A stretch of 64,000 bases of DNA from Clostridia bacterium. GTDB lineage: Bacteria > Bacillota > Clostridia > Oscillospirales > RGIG8002. The position numbers were made by a program, and so were the translations under genes. The stretch is taken from positions 62,001-126,000 of the forward strand of contig JAFZQJ010000026.1 in NCBI GenBank assembly GCA_017620395.1, read 5' to 3'. The notes under the pieces are model-generated. The model did not search any database. It saw only the letters and a program-made list of their open reading frames with translations, and was not told where the DNA came from. Shown in pieces: positions 9,967-18,431 of the stretch. Position 1 is the stretch's first letter. Every line of letters starts with the position of its first letter.

Positions 9967-11800
9967 CGATATCGAAAAAAGACTGACGGAAGTAAAGAAG
10001 CCCTCCCGCTACTGCGGCGGAGAGGTCAATTCCGTCATCAAAGATCCGGCTTCTACCGAGGTCAGCTACGCGTTCTGCTTCCCGGACCTCTACGAAGTCG
10101 GCATGTCGCATATCGGTATGAAGATACTCTATTCCGCGGCGAACCGGCTCGACTTCGTTCGCTGCGAGCGCGTTTTCGCGCCGGACCGCGATATGATAGA
10201 GCTTATGCGCGAGACGGATACGTCGCTTTTTTCGCTTGAGAACAAGCTGCCCGTCGCGTCCTTCGACCTCGTCGGATTCTCGCTTCAATACGAGCTTTCC
10301 TACACCACGATGCTTCAGATGCTGAAGCTCGCGGGCATTCCGCTTTACTCCCGCGACCGCGGCGAAGACGACCCGCTCGTCATCGTCGGAGGCCCGTGCT
10401 CTTACAACAGCGAGCCGATCGCCGACTTCGTCGACCTCGTCGTGCTCGGAGAAGGGGAGGAGGTCGGCGACGAAACGCTCGAGCTCATCCGCGCCTGCAA
10501 GCGCGAGGGCTGCGGCCGCGCCGAAACGCTCCGCCGCTTCGCCGGAATAAAGGGCATATACGTCCCGTCATTTTACGACGTCGAATACGACGGCGTGAAG
10601 ATCAGATCGATAACCCCTAACCGTCCGGAAGCGCCGGCGCGGATCAGAAAGCGCATCATCGAAGACCTCGACAAAGCGTTCTATCCGGAGAGCTACGTCG
10701 TGCCCTACGGCGAGATCGTCCACGACCGCGCCTCCGTCGAGGTGCAGCGCGGCTGTATACGCGGCTGCCGCTTCTGCCAGGCGGGGTTCATCTACCGCCC
10801 CTTCCGCACCAAGAGCGCCGCGACGCTCAACTTCACCGCGAAAACGCTCTGCGAAAACACCGGCTACGACGAGCTCTCGCTGCTTTCGCTCTCCACGAGC
10901 GACTACCCCGAATTGAGCGGCCTCGTCGACGGACTCAACGAGTGGGCGGAGCCGAAGGGGATAAACCTCGCGCTGCCTTCTCTGCGCGTCGACAACTTCT
11001 CGATCGAGCTGATGAAGCGCGTGCAGAAGCTCCGTAAAAGCGGACTTACCCTCGCGCCCGAAGCGGGCAGCGAGCGCATGCGCAACGTGATAAACAAAAA
11101 CGTGCACGAAGCGGACATAATGCGCGCCGTGAACGCGGCGTTCGGCGGCGGCTTCACCTCCGTCAAGCTCTACTTTATGCTCGGCCTGCCGTTTGAAACC
11201 GACGAGGATATCGTCGCCATAGCCGACACCGCGCAGAAGGTCGTAGACGCCTACTACGCGAGCGAGGGCAGGCAGAAGGGCAGGAGCGTTTCCGTTTCGC
11301 TCTCCGTCGCGGCGTTCGTGCCCAAGCCCTTCACTCCGTTCCAATATGTGCCGCAGGATACCGCGGAGGAGCACTCGCGCAAGCAGAAGCTCCTGCGCGA
11401 GCACGTCCGTTCCAACAAGATAAAGCTCTCCACGCACGACGCGGATACGTCGTATATCGAAGCGGTGCTCGCCCGCGGCGACCGCCGCCTCGTTCCCGCG
11501 ATGGCGCTCGCCGCCGAGCGCGGCGCCTATCTGGAGGGCTGGAGCGAGAACTTCTCGCTCGATTTCTGGAAAGAGATTTTCGCCGAATGCGGCGTAAACG
11601 GCGACGACTACGCCTGCCGCGAACGCGGTACGGACGAGCTGCTCCCGTGGTCGCATATAGACATAGGCGTAACTGACAGATTCTTCATATCCGAATACGA
11701 AAAAGCGAAGCAGGCGGCCGCCTCGCCCAACTGCGCCGAGAAATGCCTCGGCTGCGGCGCCGCGTCGCTGGGAGGGGGAAGGTACTGTGCGAAACGTTAG
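9956..11800 (+). CDS. TIGR03960-family radical SAM protein with B12-binding-like N-terminus
   Basis: A 614-residue radical SAM protein. The [4Fe-4S] motif CIRGCRFC (CxxxCxxC, about 267-274) sits in VQRGCIRGCRFCQAGF. The N-terminal 200 residues resemble the cobalamin-binding-type domain of this family, and the C-terminus has a CxxxCLGCG cluster (about 600-607). The reaction is not established. In Clostridia the family is almost always adjacent to a DUF2344 partner, as here. Translation starts at TTG 9956 inside the end of folT, behind GAGAGG. It overlaps the DUF2344 gene by 14 bases. Confidence 0.92.
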   Translation: MAYSDIEKRLTEVKKPSRYCGGEVNSVIKDPASTEVSYAFCFPDLYEVGMSHIGMKILYSAANRLDFVRCERVFAPDRDMIELMRETDTSLFSLENKLPVASFDLVGFSLQYELSYTTMLQMLKLAGIPLYSRDRGEDDPLVIVGGPCSYNSEPIADFVDLVVLGEGEEVGDETLELIRACKREGCGRAETLRRFAGIKGIYVPSFYDVEYDGVKIRSITPNRPEAPARIRKRIIEDLDKAFYPESYVVPYGEIVHDRASVEVQRGCIRGCRFCQAGFIYRPFRTKSAATLNFTAKTLCENTGYDELSLLSLSTSDYPELSGLVDGLNEWAEPKGINLALPSLRVDNFSIELMKRVQKLRKSGLTLAPEAGSERMRNVINKNVHEADIMRAVNAAFGGGFTSVKLYFMLGLPFETDEDIVAIADTAQKVVDAYYASEGRQKGRSVSVSLSVAAFVPKPFTPFQYVPQDTAEEHSRKQKLLREHVRSNKIKLSTHDADTSYIEAVLARGDRRLVPAMALAAERGAYLEGWSENFSLDFWKEIFAECGVNGDDYACRERGTDELLPWSHIDIGVTDRFFISEYEKAKQAAASPNCAEKCLGCGAASLGGGRYCAKR

Positions 11801-12410
11801 AGTCAGATACGAAAAGACCGGCGACGCGCGTTTCGTTTCCCATCTTGACCTCGTGCGCACCTTCGCCCGTGCCGTCAGACGCGCCGACCTGAACGTGTAT
11901 TACACCGAGGGCTTCAACCCGCATATAAAGATGAACTTCCTGCCGCCGCTTTCGCTCGGCTACGAGAGCCTGTGCGAAGCGTTCGATATGCGCCTGACGG
12001 ACGAAACGCCCTGCCCGGAGGTCGCGCGGCGGCTCCGCGCCGTGCTGCCCGACCTGCTGCGTGTGACCGACGCCTACGAGCCGGAGACCGACCTTTCCGA
12101 CGCCGCCTCCGTGCAGTATTCGCTGCGCTTTGACGCGGATCCGGACAAGGCGGCGGAAACGCTTTCGCGCGGCGGGCTTGTCATCGAGAAGAAGACGAAG
12201 CGCGGACAGATAACCGTCGACGTCCACGACGCGCTGATAAGCGCGGAAAGCGCGGACGGCGCGCTCGAGATAACGCTTCCGATGGGGGAGAGCTGCCTCA
12301 ATCCGCGCCACGTCGTCGAGGCGCTGAATACCTACGGCGGCTTTGGCATCGAAGACTTCCGCTGCGTCCGCAGGCAGCTTTTCGCCGCCGACGGCAGCGT
12401 GTTCAGGTAG
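11787..12410 (+). CDS. DUF2344 / TIGR03936 radical-SAM partner protein
   Basis: A 207-residue protein starting at GTG 11787 inside the end of the radical SAM gene, with MRNVRVRYEKTGDARFVSHLD typical of the family (first 20 residues carry the signature). NPHIKMNFLPPLSLGYES follows at about 50-67. It is probably a partner or substrate-handling subunit of the upstream enzyme; the function is unknown. Its last 50 bases (12357-12406) occur again at 14980-15029 with only synonymous changes. No terminator directly follows this copy. Confidence 0.88.
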   Translation: MRNVRVRYEKTGDARFVSHLDLVRTFARAVRRADLNVYYTEGFNPHIKMNFLPPLSLGYESLCEAFDMRLTDETPCPEVARRLRAVLPDLLRVTDAYEPETDLSDAASVQYSLRFDADPDKAAETLSRGGLVIEKKTKRGQITVDVHDALISAESADGALEITLPMGESCLNPRHVVEALNTYGGFGIEDFRCVRRQLFAADGSVFR

Positions 12411-12456
12411 TGGCGATCTCGATCGCCTGCGCAGCCGCGCAGTATATAGTGTTCGT

Positions 12457-12543
12457 GTCATCCTGAGAGAGCGCGAAGCGCGAACCGAAGGATCTCACAC
12501 CGTCAGCAACCGGCAGGGGATTCCTCACTTCATTCGGAATGAC
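12457..12543 (+). repeat. Dispersed GTCATYCNGAG-type repeat, inverted pair
   Basis: The element starts GTCATCCTGAGAG and has CGAAGGATCTCAC internally. It ends with ATTCGGAATGAC, so two related units face each other, each beginning GTCATYC at its outer end. A single related unit lies at 41985-42017. This is the common TCATTCCGAG...CGAAGGATC family of short intergenic repeats found in many gut bacterial genomes. It fills the gap between the DUF2344 and MBL genes. Confidence 0.7.
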
Positions 12544-12577
12544 ATTACCGCGCTCAAACTCAAAAGGAGAAAACCAC

Positions 12578-13402
12578 ATGAAGATCAAATACCTCGGCAC
12601 CGCCGCCGCGGAGGCGATACCGGCGCTGTTCTGCACCTGCGAGACCTGCCGCGAAGCGCGGAAGGCGGGCGGCCGCGAACTGCGTCTGCGTTCGCAGGCG
12701 CTTATCAACGATACGCTGCTCATCGATCTCAACGGCGACACCGCCGCGAACGCGCAACGCTTCGGGCTGGATATGACGCGCGTTTTCCATTGCCTGATAA
12801 CCCACGTCCACAGCGACCACTTCTGCGTGCCGGAGTTTTTCTACGTCAGCCCCGGCTTTACACACCGCGACGGAATGCCGCCGCTGACCGTGCACGGCAG
12901 CGAAGACGTCGCCGAAGCGCTTGAAAAGAGCGTCGCCGCCGCAAAGGGCGCGCTCGTCTGCCGTTTCGAGCCGCCGTTCGCGCCGTTCGACGCGGGCGGC
13001 GTGCGCGTGACCGCGCTGAAGGCGAGCCACGGCATTCCTCATCCGTATATCTACCTGCTCGAGCAGGATGGCAAGTCGATCCTCTACGCGCACGACACCG
13101 GCCCCTTCCCTGAGGAAACCTGGGATTACCTCGGTCGGTCGAACGTCCGGCTGTCGCTCGTTTCGCTCGACTGCAACGACGGCGACGTTGACGATATCGA
13201 ATACGACGGACATATGTGCGTCGGTCGCTGCAAAAGGGTGCGCGACAGACTGAAGTCGCTTGGGATTGCGGACGAAAGCGCCGTTTTCGTGCTCAACCAC
13301 TTTTCGCATAACGGCGTCCGCACCCTCTACCGCGATATGTCGAAGATCGCCGAACGCGAGGGCTTTATCGCCTCATACGACGGACTTGAACTGACGGTGT
13401 AA
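12578..13402 (+). CDS. MBL-fold metallohydrolase, PhnP-like
   Basis: A 274-residue metallo-beta-lactamase-fold hydrolase. The metal motif is THVHSDHF, with H76, H78, D80 and H81. Later ligands are in SHGIPHPYIY, YAHDTG and a C-terminal LNHFSHNG. Cysteines near the N-terminus (FCTCETC) recall the extra zinc site of PhnP phosphodiesterases. The ATG at 12578 is preceded by AAAAGGAG; an upstream in-frame ATG lies inside the repeat element. The substrate is probably a phosphodiester or cyclic phosphate, but that is inference. Confidence 0.87.
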   Translation: MKIKYLGTAAAEAIPALFCTCETCREARKAGGRELRLRSQALINDTLLIDLNGDTAANAQRFGLDMTRVFHCLITHVHSDHFCVPEFFYVSPGFTHRDGMPPLTVHGSEDVAEALEKSVAAAKGALVCRFEPPFAPFDAGGVRVTALKASHGIPHPYIYLLEQDGKSILYAHDTGPFPEETWDYLGRSNVRLSLVSLDCNDGDVDDIEYDGHMCVGRCKRVRDRLKSLGIADESAVFVLNHFSHNGVRTLYRDMSKIAEREGFIASYDGLELTV

Positions 13403-13449
13403 CGCCGCCGTTCCGTGCGAAGCAAGCCGAAAGCCGTTCGAAATACCGT

Positions 13450-13482
13450 GCGCCTTCCTCATCCGGGGGAGGCGCCGTTTTT
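13450..13482 (+). terminator. Intrinsic terminator after MBL hydrolase
   Basis: GCGCC...GGCGC stem extended by TTCCTC/GGGGGA with G-T pairs, then a short T run at 13478-13482. Confidence 0.6.
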
Positions 13483-13507
13483 GCGCGCGTAAGGGCGGGT
13501 GTTTTTC

Positions 13508-13545
13508 AAAAATCGGTTGACCGATTTTCAATTCTGTGATAAAAT
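13508..13545 (+). promoter_or_regulatory. Promoter with inverted repeat over the -35 box (dockerin gene)
   Basis: TTGACC (13517-13522) and TAAAAT (13540-13545, preceded by TGA) are 17 bases apart. The -35 lies in the centre of AAAATCGG-TTGA-CCGATTTT (13509-13528), a good candidate repressor site. Confidence 0.65.
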
Positions 13546-13608
13546 ATATATGTAATACTGACCGCTTGACGCGATTTCGCGCAGATAAAAACAACGGAGG
13601 AAAAAAGA

Positions 13609-14862
13609 ATGAAAAGAAACATTTTCAAAAATCTGATTTCCGTGGCGGTAGCAGCGGCTATGCTGCTTGCGGCGCTTTCGGCGGCGCCGGCTGCGTCCGC
13701 GGGCGACGCGAGCGCCACCGTCCTGCGCGTGAGAAGCTCGAAGGACTTTCACGACGCGCTCTGGCAAACCGACGATAATGAAACTTACACGGTCGTCATT
13801 CGCATGGAGGACGATATCAAGGTCGAGCTTGATTCCAGTGAGCAGCTTGTCTGGATGAACGGGTATGACAATTATAATCTTATCCTCGACCTGAACGGCC
13901 ACGTCCTCGACCTCGGCTCATGCGTTCTGAAGGTCTGGAACTATGCATGCAACGCGACGTATCATCTGACAGACACCGTCGGCACCGGAAAGATACTGAC
14001 CGATACGACCGCCCACGCGGTCACTTTCCACAGCACAGAAGTTATGCACAACCAGCCCTTCACGGTAGACGTCAACGGCGTGACGTTCGAAAACGCGGGC
14101 ACGGCGGGCGACGCCTTCTACGTTGACGGCGACAACGGCGAGAATCAAACCATTGTGATCAAGGACGCGACCTTTATCAATTATGGTACCGCGTTCGATT
14201 ACTCGAGCGTCGAGAATGTCATAATAAAGAATATGAGGCGCAGCACTACGAACGGCACGGTGGGATTTGCCCAGGTCGGCAGAACCGTCGGGGAAGCGAT
14301 TGCCGACGGCTTCGAGCTGAGTTATTACAGATATGAATACCCGGATTATTTCGAGGAGATCGCGGCAAGCGATACGATCATCGCCGGGATACCCGTTTAC
14401 GAGGGCTACGACGCAGTCGTCCGTCCGACCGTTGCGGAGGCGCAATACGCCGCGACGTTCGATCCAAACGGCGGCAGCGGAACGATGGAATCAGTTTACC
14501 GTGCCAGCGAAGGTCCGTTCGCGTTCCCGGAATGCGGCTTCACCGCGCCTTCGGGCAAGCATTTCGTCTGCTGGATGATGGGCGGCAGGGTCTATCTGCC
14601 CGGTGAAGTTCTGTTTATGGACTATAACTTCGGCATCGCCGCGGTATGGAGCGACGGAGTCAAGGGCGATATGGACGGCGACGATGAGATTACCGTCGCG
14701 GACGCGCTGAAAGCGCTGCGTATCGCCGCGAAGCTCGTTGAGGCGACTGAAGAAGATCTGCGGATCGGAGATATCGACGGCAACGGCAAAATCGAGGTAA
14801 ACGACGCGCTGGCGATACTTCGCGTAGCCGCGAAGCTGGCGGATCAAAGCTCGCTCGGATAA
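13609..14862 (+). CDS. Secreted dockerin type I protein
   Basis: 417 residues. A class I signal peptide (MKRNIFKNLISVAVAAAMLL, ending near AAPAASAG) leads a region rich in beta-strands, probably a beta-helix-like segment (FTVDVNGVTFENAG and similar). FDPNGGSGTMESVY is an InlB B-repeat-like stretch. The C-terminus (about 349-413) is a dockerin with two calcium-loop repeats, GDMDGDDEITVADALKALR and GDIDGNGKIEVNDALAILR. It therefore probably docks on a cohesin-bearing surface scaffold. No glycoside hydrolase domain is recognisable. Ribosome site CGGAGGAAA. Confidence 0.85.
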   Translation: MKRNIFKNLISVAVAAAMLLAALSAAPAASAGDASATVLRVRSSKDFHDALWQTDDNETYTVVIRMEDDIKVELDSSEQLVWMNGYDNYNLILDLNGHVLDLGSCVLKVWNYACNATYHLTDTVGTGKILTDTTAHAVTFHSTEVMHNQPFTVDVNGVTFENAGTAGDAFYVDGDNGENQTIVIKDATFINYGTAFDYSSVENVIIKNMRRSTTNGTVGFAQVGRTVGEAIADGFELSYYRYEYPDYFEEIAASDTIIAGIPVYEGYDAVVRPTVAEAQYAATFDPNGGSGTMESVYRASEGPFAFPECGFTAPSGKHFVCWMMGGRVYLPGEVLFMDYNFGIAAVWSDGVKGDMDGDDEITVADALKALRIAAKLVEATEEDLRIGDIDGNGKIEVNDALAILRVAAKLADQSSLG

Positions 14863-14933
14863 ACCGCGGTGATGGGCTGTTAAGCGAAAACGCCGACAGC
14901 GCAGTCCTTTTCTGCATGGTGGTAAAACATATT

Positions 14934-14965
14934 AAAAACGGCTCACAATTTCGTGAGCCGTTTTT
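14934..14965 (+). terminator. Intrinsic terminator after dockerin gene
   Basis: AAAAACGGCTCAC pairs with GTGAGCCGTTTTT around a 6-base loop. It can act in both directions. Confidence 0.85.
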
Positions 14966-14979
14966 GTTAATTATCCGGT

Positions 14980-15032
14980 TTCCGGTGCGTCCGCAGGCAG
15001 CTTTTCGCCGCCGACGGCAGCGTATTCAGATG
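14980..15032 (+). pseudogene. Detached second copy of the DUF2344 gene 3' end
   Basis: Bases 14980-15029 match 12357-12406 at 48 of 50 positions and at equal length, and a TGA (15030-15032) ends the frame. Both differences, and the altered last codon context (AGG TAG against AGA TGA), are synonymous: FRCVRRQLFAADGSVFR is encoded in both places. This copy is followed by a strong terminator, as expected for an operon end. It looks like the original or a recombined 3' end, separated from its gene by about 2.6 kb. Confidence 0.75.
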
Positions 15033-15042
15033 AATAGCAAGT

Positions 15043-15076
15043 AAAAAAGCGCACGCCCGCGGGCGTGCGCTTTTTT
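15043..15076 (+). terminator. Strong intrinsic terminator downstream of DUF2344 remnant
   Basis: GCGCACGCCC and GGGCGTGCGC form a perfect 10-pair stem flanked by A6 and T6. It may originally have ended the radical SAM-DUF2344 operon. Confidence 0.85.
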
Positions 15077-15193
15077 ATCGCGATCACTTGTTAAGCCCTA
15101 TTATTATTCGGAGTTTATTGTTTCATAAACAAAGTCCGTGACGGCGTTGTGTTATGATTTTCAACAAAAATATTAAGATATAACAATAAACTA

Positions 15194-15267: not shown

Positions 15268-16704
15268 ATGAAAGCGAAACTGTTGAGACTGTCAATTGCT
15301 ATGGTGCTTATAGCAGCGATCGCGGTATTACCGCAAACGCCCGCATTCGCCTTACCTGATTCACAGGAGGCGGAATTCAAGGACATACGCAGTTACGAAA
15401 AGTGGCTTCCCGCTTCGCTCGGCATCGAAATACCGAACGTAAATCTGTTCGCCGTTCGCGACGACAGACCGTTGGACGAAGTGGAAATTCAGGAGGCCGT
15501 GACGTTCGGAGCGAGCCGGAACGAAGCGAAAAAAATGACGCTCAGCGAACTGCTCGACTTCCTCGGCTCAAAAAAGCTCACGCCACAGTCTAAAGAAAAT
15601 ATGCGCATATTATTCCCCGAACTCTCGAAAGAGCAGATCGACGAAATGACCTATAAGGATTATGAAAACTATAGTTATGCCCAAACCCATAAGGCTCTTA
15701 CCCCTGATGAGAAAACGCTTGAGGAACTGGAGCGGCGCGGTATAACGCTTGATGATTTTATTTACCTTCACAAGTGCTATGAGGACGATGCAAGCATTCT
15801 CGCCGAAAACGACGCGGTACTGCGCTCCGCGCTGAAAAAGTACTATTTATTCAAGCTTGATTACGCCCAAGCGGTGTCAAACGACAGCGATTACCGGAAC
15901 GCAACTGTACCGCAAAGCGAAAAAGAAGATGCTGAGCCGACGCGCTACGACTCTTCTCTTTACGAGACTGTCGCAAGCTTCCAAAGATATAAGTTTAACC
16001 CCGATTCTTTTTTGAGGACGACTTATACCCACATCTACAGACACAGACAGAATCAGGAAGTCGCTGTGTTGAGCGCCTATTACGCCATCTATGCGTCGTC
16101 CACACCAGACCCTAATCCTGATACTTATTATTTTACCAATCTGTACGGCACTTTCTCTGAAAGTCATCAGGGCGCACACGAGGGCGTCGATATGGTGTAC
16201 TCCTTTAACGGAAACAATACTCCAAACGTCCACTCGATAACGCCCGGAACGGCATCTATACCTCCGAACGATGCCAGTAACGGTGCAGTTAAAGTTACCC
16301 ATAGCAGTTACGGCTCGGCGATATACGCTCATATGACAAACAGGATTGTCAGCGGCAACAACACGGCTACTGTATCTGCAGGCGCCGTAATAGGGAAGCA
16401 AGGTGATGTGGGGTATGCCAACGGCAAGCATGTGCATTTTGAAATCGCAACCTCTATGCAACCATGTGGTAATGATGTTCTTACGTCCGCATCACCCTAT
16501 CTGTTTATGCACACCTATAACGGACAACACCTTGCGCCTGTTAATGATAATCAATGGACGAACTATGGGAGTCCTATTTATCATCGCGGCGCCTGTAGTT
16601 TTTTGGGATGCTCCGGGTATGCATACGCTTATCATGTCCCGAATGCTGCGGGTAATAGGTGTACGGTGTGCGGATACGTTGGCACTATTGTGGGTCCGTC
16701 CTGA
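15268..16704 (+). CDS. Secreted M23-family metallopeptidase-like protein
   Basis: 478 residues with a signal peptide (hydrophobic LSIAMVLIAAIAVLPQTPAFA). A helical middle region follows, then a C-terminal LytM/M23-like domain. HEGVDMVYSF supplies the first His/Asp pair, and GKHVHFEI the HxH zinc motif. The fold probably targets peptidoglycan peptides; the domain is divergent, so another role is possible. The last 30 residues contain CSFLGCSG and CTVCGYVG cysteine pairs. The start ATG 15268 follows AAAGGAGG. Codon use is visibly more AT-rich than in neighbouring housekeeping genes. Confidence 0.83.
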   Translation: MKAKLLRLSIAMVLIAAIAVLPQTPAFALPDSQEAEFKDIRSYEKWLPASLGIEIPNVNLFAVRDDRPLDEVEIQEAVTFGASRNEAKKMTLSELLDFLGSKKLTPQSKENMRILFPELSKEQIDEMTYKDYENYSYAQTHKALTPDEKTLEELERRGITLDDFIYLHKCYEDDASILAENDAVLRSALKKYYLFKLDYAQAVSNDSDYRNATVPQSEKEDAEPTRYDSSLYETVASFQRYKFNPDSFLRTTYTHIYRHRQNQEVAVLSAYYAIYASSTPDPNPDTYYFTNLYGTFSESHQGAHEGVDMVYSFNGNNTPNVHSITPGTASIPPNDASNGAVKVTHSSYGSAIYAHMTNRIVSGNNTATVSAGAVIGKQGDVGYANGKHVHFEIATSMQPCGNDVLTSASPYLFMHTYNGQHLAPVNDNQWTNYGSPIYHRGACSFLGCSGYAYAYHVPNAAGNRCTVCGYVGTIVGPS

Positions 16705-16742: not shown

Positions 16743-17462
16743 ATGAAAAGAATCGTTGCGTTTCTTTTTATCCCAGTTATGCTGTTTTTGTTTTGCGCCT
16801 GCGGGAAGCCGTCGGCGCCGGTAAGCAGCTCCGCGCCTCCGGAATCGTCGAATGAAGAGTCGCAATATACCGATCCAGGTCCGAGCGATATTATAATATA
16901 CCCCGAGCTCAACGCCGTCACGCCGAACGCCGGTGCGAGAAAGATGATATCCGAAGACGTCGATCTGTTTGGGCTGAGCGACAAAACGATGCGTGAGGAT
17001 CTTGTGCGGATATTCGGAGAGCCGAAAGAAGTGACTAAAGTGGGCGATGTCAGTGAATACGAAAAAACGATATACGTCTATGACGGTATGCGGTTTACGT
17101 TCATCGACGCGCTTTACGGTGAGCCGTTTAGCCATCCGGACTTATACGTAGCGGAGTTCAGAAGGGACGATTTGACGTATCCCGGAGGGATAAAGCTCGG
17201 CGATTCGCTCTATGACGTAGTAGTAAAATTCCCGCAGGAGCGCGACTACCGATCAGAAGCTATGTACGGCGATCCGATGGATAAGTTTACGACCGGCTTT
17301 GCGAAGTTGCTCGATTACGACGTGCTCACTCAAGACGAGGGTAATTACTCCTTACTGCTCTGCTGCGGCTGGTGGCCGACGGTATGCATCAACTTCGACG
17401 ACAATCTGAAAGTTAAGTCCGTTTATATTTACTATCATAGCGACGGTATCGGCTATCCGTAA
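16743..17462 (+). CDS. Putative lipoprotein of unknown function
   Basis: 239 residues. The N-terminus MKRIVAFLFIPVMLFLFCAC ends in a lipobox-like LFCAC (cysteine about 18 or 20), followed by a Ser/Pro linker. No catalytic domain is recognised. The body has LREDLVRIFGEPKEVTKVGD-like features: a small beta-rich fold with a GxP turn, as in SmpA/OmlA-like lipoproteins (reading is mine, low certainty). It starts 38 bases after the M23 gene with AAAAGGAG, so it is probably co-transcribed. Confidence 0.75.
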   Translation: MKRIVAFLFIPVMLFLFCACGKPSAPVSSSAPPESSNEESQYTDPGPSDIIIYPELNAVTPNAGARKMISEDVDLFGLSDKTMREDLVRIFGEPKEVTKVGDVSEYEKTIYVYDGMRFTFIDALYGEPFSHPDLYVAEFRRDDLTYPGGIKLGDSLYDVVVKFPQERDYRSEAMYGDPMDKFTTGFAKLLDYDVLTQDEGNYSLLLCCGWWPTVCINFDDNLKVKSVYIYYHSDGIGYP

Positions 17463-17531: not shown

Positions 17532-18431
17532 TTATTTATTCAGTTGTCTGATCTTCGGGTCGCCGTAGAAGCCGAGGATTATCGTGCCGGGGCCGACGGA
17601 GGAGCCGACGCCCTGATTGACGACGCCGAAGTGGAAGTTTATCTTCTTATCGGGGAAGAAGCTCTGTATCGCGTCCGCGACCTCCTTCGCGTCCTCCTCG
17701 CAGTCGGCGTGAGCGATGCAGACGTTGTTGTTCGCGTCGAGGTCGGCGTAGTCGCGCACGTATTCCGCGCTTCTTATCAGCGAGGCCTTTCTGCCTCTGA
17801 CTTTCTCGACGGCGACGTTGTGGCCGGTCTCGTCGTAGACGATCATCGGCTTGACGCTCAGCAGCCCGCCGAAGAAGGCGGCGGAGGCGCTGATGCGTCC
17901 GGCGCGGCGCAGATAGGAGAGGTTATCGACCGTGCCGGCTTCGTTGAAGTGCTCTCTGTTGTCGAGCACCCATTGATGCACGTCTTCGATGCTCATTCCC
18001 GCGTCGCGCTTTTTGGCGGCTTCGATGACCATCATCGCCAGCGAATAGCAGCAGTTGTAGGTATCCACGCAGATTATCTTCCTGTCGGGGAACTCCTTCT
18101 GCAGCTTTTCCTTCGCGGCGATGCTTTCAAGCACGGAGCCGGAGAGCGCGTTGCAGCAGGAGAGCGAGAGCACGTCGCGCCCTTCTTCGAGCGCCGTACG
18201 GAACGCCGCCTCATACTCCGCCGCGGAGACCTGCGAGGAGGAGAACTTCGCGCCGCTTCTGACTATGTCGTAATACTCTTTCGGCTCGAAGTTGGTCCAG
18301 TCGCGGTCGACGTCGTGCTCGACGCCGTCGATGTAGATGTGCATAGGCAGCGATTCCGCAATGCCGTATTCTTTGAGCTGTTCGCTGCTCAGGTTGCTGC
18401 TCGAGTCTGTAAAGATCGCAAATTTTTCCAT
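17532..18431 (-). CDS. DegV family fatty-acid-binding protein (FakB-like)
   Basis: A 299-residue DegV protein. The N-terminal FAIFTDSSSNLS and the SSSQVSAAEY (TSQPS-like) loop around residue 80 line the fatty-acid carboxylate site; SGSV follows. In Firmicutes, FakB/DegV proteins present exogenous fatty acids to the kinase FakA for phosphorylation. Its position 11 bases after a FakA-like gene, transcribed in the same direction, supports that role. Chain preference is not deducible. Confidence 0.92.
   Translation of the reverse strand: MEKFAIFTDSSSNLSSEQLKEYGIAESLPMHIYIDGVEHDVDRDWTNFEPKEYYDIVRSGAKFSSSQVSAAEYEAAFRTALEEGRDVLSLSCCNALSGSVLESIAAKEKLQKEFPDRKIICVDTYNCCYSLAMMVIEAAKKRDAGMSIEDVHQWVLDNREHFNEAGTVDNLSYLRRAGRISASAAFFGGLLSVKPMIVYDETGHNVAVEKVRGRKASLIRSAEYVRDYADLDANNNVCIAHADCEEDAKEVADAIQSFFPDKKINFHFGVVNQGVGSSVGPGTIILGFYGDPKIRQLNK

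Follow-up and report, generated by a model that had tools for sequence, protein, structure and literature searches.

Homology-facilitated illegitimate recombination, established in three naturally competent species and in Escherichia coli, anchors one side of incoming DNA by homology and joins the other illegitimately, and it explains how a gene comes to be inserted next to a duplicated or truncated flank (PMC3240628). Such recombination has been proposed to account for immunity genes that were displaced and effector 3' ends that were shifted in the type VI secretion system (T6SS) effector/immunity arrays of Vibrio cholerae, and likewise for Rhs 3' regions (PMC5361080). Small variable segments of bacterial genomes, mostly without signs of mobile elements, are also largely attributed to illegitimate recombination (PMC2884548). 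Here we describe a duplicated gene tail in a 64,000-nucleotide stretch of a Clostridia bacterium genome (contig JAFZQJ010000026.1, positions 62,001 to 126,000; hereafter, the window): the 3' end of a DUF2344 gene recurs, as a relic with its own stop codon, downstream of an accessory dockerin-like gene. The reading that we favor, with some reservation, is that this second copy is the scar of a recombination between lineages in which one end was joined by homology and the other illegitimately.

The arrangement thus proposed is that of homology-facilitated illegitimate recombination, but the events described for it were laboratory events with known donors (PMC3240628), whereas ours are deduced from genomes alone. 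As in the V. cholerae arrays and in orphan Rhs and contact-dependent inhibition (CDI) 3' regions, new modules would have displaced older 3' parts downstream, leaving truncated ends. The T6SS leftovers, in contrast, consist of effector ends or of immunity genes, and selection may maintain them, while those described here are short and apparently useless tails of housekeeping-type genes (PMC5361080). The small variable segments resemble our case in being short and mostly without mobile-element signs, but duplicated tails bracketing accessory genes are not the focus of the available text (PMC2884548). A literature search found no paper on duplicated housekeeping-gene tails, with subscription literature thinly covered, so that absence is not proven. 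The process itself is not new; that it recurs on the tails of ordinary genes, with secreted and regulatory cargo, is of modest novelty and does not constitute a new system.

Results

Duplication of the DUF2344 gene end

The DUF2344 gene (positions 11787 to 12410 of the window, forward strand; Pfam PF10105, E value 2.8e-44) ends in the first tail copy, at 12357 to 12410, and the second copy lies on the same strand at 14980 to 15033. A preliminary description of the window had reported segments 12357 to 12406 and 14980 to 15029 to be identical at 48 of 50 positions, and an ungapped alignment confirmed this (blastn E value, 1.7e-15); extended to the stop codon, the copies share 49 of 54 bases. 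Both encode the peptide FRCVRRQLFAADGSVFR, followed by the stop. The coding differences are only synonymous, as had been claimed, and affect three codons (CGC/CGG, GTG/GTA, and AGG/AGA), while the stop codons are TAG in the gene and TGA in the relic. A strong terminator, a perfect palindrome at 15042 to 15077, indeed follows the second copy only, none being seen after the first; its 18-base core occurs once each in the window genome and in one relative (G002, below), both times at this locus. Nor does the second copy belong to a long gene of its own, since no in-phase open frame precedes it. A search for a viral origin, made with a 35-base core of the DUF2344 tail, gave no exact match in viral_contigs.

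The DUF2344 gene was searched for in 59 genomes and gave matches in 12, the window genome included. Full-length matches were confined to three genomes of the same genus, G001 (91% identity), G002 (95%), and G003 (83%), and eight more distant genomes showed short matches. The comparisons below concern these three genomes and the window genome, G000 (1.93 Mb in 35 contigs, the window lying on contig C26), all four probably metagenome assemblies.

Location of the accessory site

The preliminary description had proposed that a dispersed repeat, the gene of a metallo-beta-lactamase (MBL)-fold hydrolase, and the dockerin-like gene, all lying between the two tail copies, were inserted as one block. 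This did not hold. The same order of a radical-SAM gene, the DUF2344 gene, the MBL gene, and a DegV-family gene on the opposite strand is shared by the relatives, the DUF2344 gene being at the same place in G001, G002, and G003 and the MBL gene (12578 to 13402, forward strand; Pfam PF12706, E value 9.4e-9) following it directly in all three. In addition, the identity to G002, about 97%, continues unbroken from the DUF2344 gene into the MBL gene. The repeat itself is real, parts of 12440 to 12560 recurring on contigs C13, C9, and C12 of G000, and it lies in a DUF2344/MBL gap (12411 to 12577) that is different in every relative. No relative with the DUF2344 gene directly before a terminator of the 15042-to-15077 type, which the inserted-block proposal had led one to expect, was found among these genomes; G002 has a short, different terminator directly after DUF2344, yet its next gene is MBL.

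The site is empty in G003, where the overlapping contigs C21 and C24 read MBL, terminator, DegV. Because the MBL gene adjoins DUF2344 in the relatives and the G003 gap is empty, we regard MBL as a core gene, outside the insert, and the convergent MBL/DegV gap as the accessory site. In G000, the dockerin-like gene comes first in this gap and has a terminator of its own; the relic and the palindromic terminator follow, and after them the genes of an M23 peptidase and a putative lipoprotein. The gap is bordered on the right by the DegV-family gene (17532 to 18431, reverse strand; Pfam PF02645, E value 1.6e-56), present in all four genomes. Within the bracket formed by the two copies, only the dockerin-like gene is therefore accessory, the second accessory pair lying outside it. 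The suggestion that the insert had come with the DUF2344 end of a related strain survives in part: a gene-end relic does stand beside inserted DNA and is nearer to the G002 allele than to its own, but no single block was inserted. Two contigs of G001 break off within the MBL/DegV gap, where they hold 191 and 167 bases of other sequence. Around terminator halves, these ends (L026, 1 to 191, and L049, 8639 to 8805) show an inverted repeat, 50 bases long with 41 matching positions, as though the hairpin had taken in DNA.

Tail relic and divergent tract in G002

The same gap holds different cargo and the tail of a different gene in G002, where MBL is followed by a 1,030-codon frame (an extracytoplasmic function [ECF] sigma factor joined to an unknown part), a relic of the MBL tail, a terminator, and DegV. 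This relic is 138 bp long, keeps the phase of MBL, and has a stop codon of its own (L025, 9839 to 9976); it begins nine bases past the stop of the cargo. Of its 138 bases, 111 are shared with the MBL gene of its own genome, and 14 codon changes are synonymous against 6 that are nonsynonymous, an excess of synonymous changes with a binomial P value of about 3e-5 if 25% are expected to be synonymous. Judged from these codons, the relic looks unlike the product of random decay and like the end of a working gene from another lineage.

We then compared the flanks of the insert. To its left, G000 and G002 share about 97% identity over a distance of up to about 14 kb, and neither is closer to G001 than the other. 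On its right, over about 3 kb, the identity to G001 is 81 to 87% for G002 versus 85 to 90% for G000, and in the same DegV-side tract the identity to G003 is also mostly lowered, in G002 only. The difference between G000 and G002 ends near window position 20.5 kb. The roughly 3-kb tract abutting the G002 relic thus looks like imported DNA, and because the identity profiles agree with the divergence of the relic, the latter is best read as the left edge of the imported tract. Along the contig, other divergent tracts alternate with tracts of 97% identity, indicating that exchange between lineages is frequent here. As to the cargo frame itself (L025, 6737 to 9829), its long second part contains TPR-like and DUF3108-like stretches, and it occurs in one of the four genomes.

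Scan for further truncated tails

Across 58 stretches of the four genomes (1,605,640 bases), 3,291 open frames of at least 150 codons were scanned for a truncated tail copy within 15 kb. One scan gave six tail rows, of which three were discarded: a pair on contig C12 as dispersed GTCATCCTGAG-type repeats and one on C20 as a neighboring related sequence. Fourteen head or middle matches were taken as repeats or tandem relatives, those of G3_L108 (four) and G3_L123 (two) after inspection of the DNA and the other eight by their place only. Two more rows, on C12 of G000 and C34 of G003, had short open frames and were taken as repeats; two further matches were set aside as dispersed repeats, and the remaining rows were pairs of long frames. 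The sensitivity of the scan is incomplete, as a one-base gap hid the G002 case from one filter. Once tandem relatives and dispersed repeats had been set aside, three tails remained, namely, DUF2344 in G000, MBL in G002, and an aldolase gene in G003.

The third case lies on contig C3 of G003 (L107), where a gene of the beta-eliminating-lyase type (the aldolase gene) is followed by an ECF sigma factor gene, an unknown gene, a dockerin gene that passes the Pfam cutoff, and then a tail of about 78 bases of the aldolase gene, 3.4 kb downstream of the original. This relic is 96% identical to the G000 allele over the best 72 bases, while the whole genes of G003 and G000 are 88% identical. All three relics look similar to alleles from other lineages and are located downstream of their parents (chance by direction alone, 1 in 8), and none is nearest to the parent gene of its own genome alone, the own and G000 alleles tying in the case of G002.

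At the aldolase locus, G000 and G002 share an ECF sigma factor gene downstream of the aldolase gene, in a region that is otherwise 95 to 98% identical. The partner genes differ (L133, 4022 to 5014, and L134, 5889 to 6827; 330 and 312 codons, without a Pfam family), and the aldolase tails differ too.

Cargo of the site in G000

The dockerin-like gene (13609 to 14862, forward strand) is an accessory gene for a secreted protein with a Dockerin_1 match below the Pfam cutoff (E value, 0.0084), and a hairpin followed by a T run forms its terminator (14934 to 14965, forward strand). In G001, G002, and G003, nothing beyond matches of 25 to 33 bases was found for it. Many further copies of its C-terminal module are present across G000; the module (window 14662 to 14866) is found at dozens of places, and the organism probably has a large dockerin set.

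The M23-family peptidase gene (15268 to 16704, forward strand; Pfam PF01551, E value 2.2e-9) is accessory, its product being probably secreted, and it is paired with an accessory gene (16743 to 17462, forward strand; no Pfam family) whose product is probably a lipoprotein from its N terminus. Relatives of the latter, 45 to 70% identical, lie next to M23 relatives on contigs C13 of G000, C74 of G002, and C34 of G003. These pairs (L063, 8470 to 10240; L061, 8488 to 10872; and L062, 550 to 2520) occupy another convergent gap in the three genomes, between a carB-dapF fusion and an exchanger-like gene, where the copy number of small lipoprotein-like genes varies. No gene-tail relic was found beside them in the stretches examined. 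The fusion is a single frame of 1,343 codons that combines the carbamoyl-phosphate synthase large chain with diaminopimelate epimerase (L063, 4113 to 8144, and L061, 11060 to 15091; Pfam assignment on the L063 copy), and we know of no such fusion from other bacteria.

Discussion

A recombination scar would arise as follows. A piece of DNA from another lineage, starting within the tail of a core gene, would recombine homologously on its core side, and its other side would be joined illegitimately, just past an accessory gene. The product would be a truncated tail of 50 to 138 bp, with its own stop and a terminator, downstream of that gene. In G002, the anchor would be the DegV side and the illegitimate end would lie in the MBL tail, joined nine bases past the cargo stop; in G000, a piece starting in the DUF2344 tail would have been joined behind the terminator of the dockerin-like gene. 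If the scar reading is right, the convergent MBL/DegV gap is best explained as a site of accessory-gene gain and exchange. From the arrangement of the genomes, we infer that homology acted on one side only, which way the DNA moved, and that it was taken up by transformation or in some other way; by analogy with G002, an import may have taken place in G000 itself. Parts of a DNA uptake machinery are present, with DprA in all four genomes and a ComEC-type competence protein in G000. Ku was found in none of the four, and Ku-type end joining is therefore unlikely.

Several observations weigh against such a scar. Foreign DNA beside the homologous anchor is seen for G002 only: in G000, DegV is at a normal distance from G001 and no foreign tract is visible, although a donor of the same lineage would leave no signal. 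The M23 pair stands between the relic and DegV, and no known donor has DUF2344 directly upstream of it. In its coding bases, the G000 relic matches the G002 allele at 50 of 51 positions and its own gene at 48 of 51, but at 54 bp it is too short for a confident assignment to a lineage. In G003, the aldolase relic differs from its own gene by two synonymous and six nonsynonymous codon changes, some of the latter coming from codons at the left edge that may lie outside the relic, and what lies to its right is not core DNA but dispersed repeats together with a gene resembling that of a phage replisome organiser. Finally, the comparison rests on only four genomes.

We considered four other explanations, among which a local tandem duplication within one genome, followed by a deletion that left only the tail of the second copy, is unlikely but the least so. 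Relic and parent have the same orientation and lie close together in all three cases, as a duplication would have it. The G002 relic, however, carries about 20% divergence, of lineage level and mostly synonymous, at the edge of a foreign tract; the absence of any relic that is closest to its own parent alone is also contrary to a local origin; and three independent survivors consisting only of a tail, each just past accessory genes, would be a coincidence. Insertion of the repeat, MBL, and dockerin-like genes in one piece, together with a related strain's DUF2344 end, would fit the coordinates of the bracket and the purely synonymous differences, but it is very improbable given that all three same-genus genomes have MBL next to DUF2344 and that the identity of MBL to the G002 gene, 97%, shows no break in the profile. 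We attach equally little weight to a chimera in which the assembler joined alleles of two strains: the genomes are apparently all many-contig metagenome assemblies and two relatives break at this very gap, but a similar structure recurs in three genomes and the junctions lie inside contigs of 190 kb (G000) and 116 kb (G002).

Some genomic islands target the 3' ends of genes and carry their own copy of the tail, which produces the same geometry of intact gene, cargo, and displaced tail. A site-specific integrative element of this type is nevertheless the least probable of the four, since no recombinase family was found in the scanned cargo frames, including the 3.3-kb cargo of G002 and the cargo of G003, since the target is not constant (the tails measure 54 bp for DUF2344, 138 bp for MBL, and about 78 bp for aldolase), and since the body and the tail of MBL in G002 are of one lineage. 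That last observation also disfavors a Campbell-type integration of a small circle in G002. No toxin/immunity system, as expected for an array that displaces toxin tips and immunity genes, was recognized among the relics (DUF2344, MBL, and beta-eliminating-lyase-type tails) or the cargo (dockerin, M23, ECF sigma factor, and unknown genes). We did not accept the terminator at 15042 to 15077 as proof that G000 and G002 are homologous here: the flanks are unmatched, and G003 has the terminator behind an unrelated gene.

Duplicated gene tails, which we read preferentially as recombination scars, are a simple searchable mark of the entry of accessory genes without a mobile element. If the pattern is wider, entries could be counted and dated by the divergence of their relics, the donor lineage could be named, and the spread of cellulosome-type and regulatory genes among uncultured rumen bacteria would become testable. 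A bolder idea, to which we give little credence, is that the direct repeats formed by the tails turn accessory genes into transposase-free cassettes, RecA recombining the relic with the parent tail so that the cargo is cleanly excised and the tail-bearing cargo reentering any relative at the same gene end. Should this be true, convergent gene gaps would serve this rumen genus as exchange ports for its secreted and regulatory genes.

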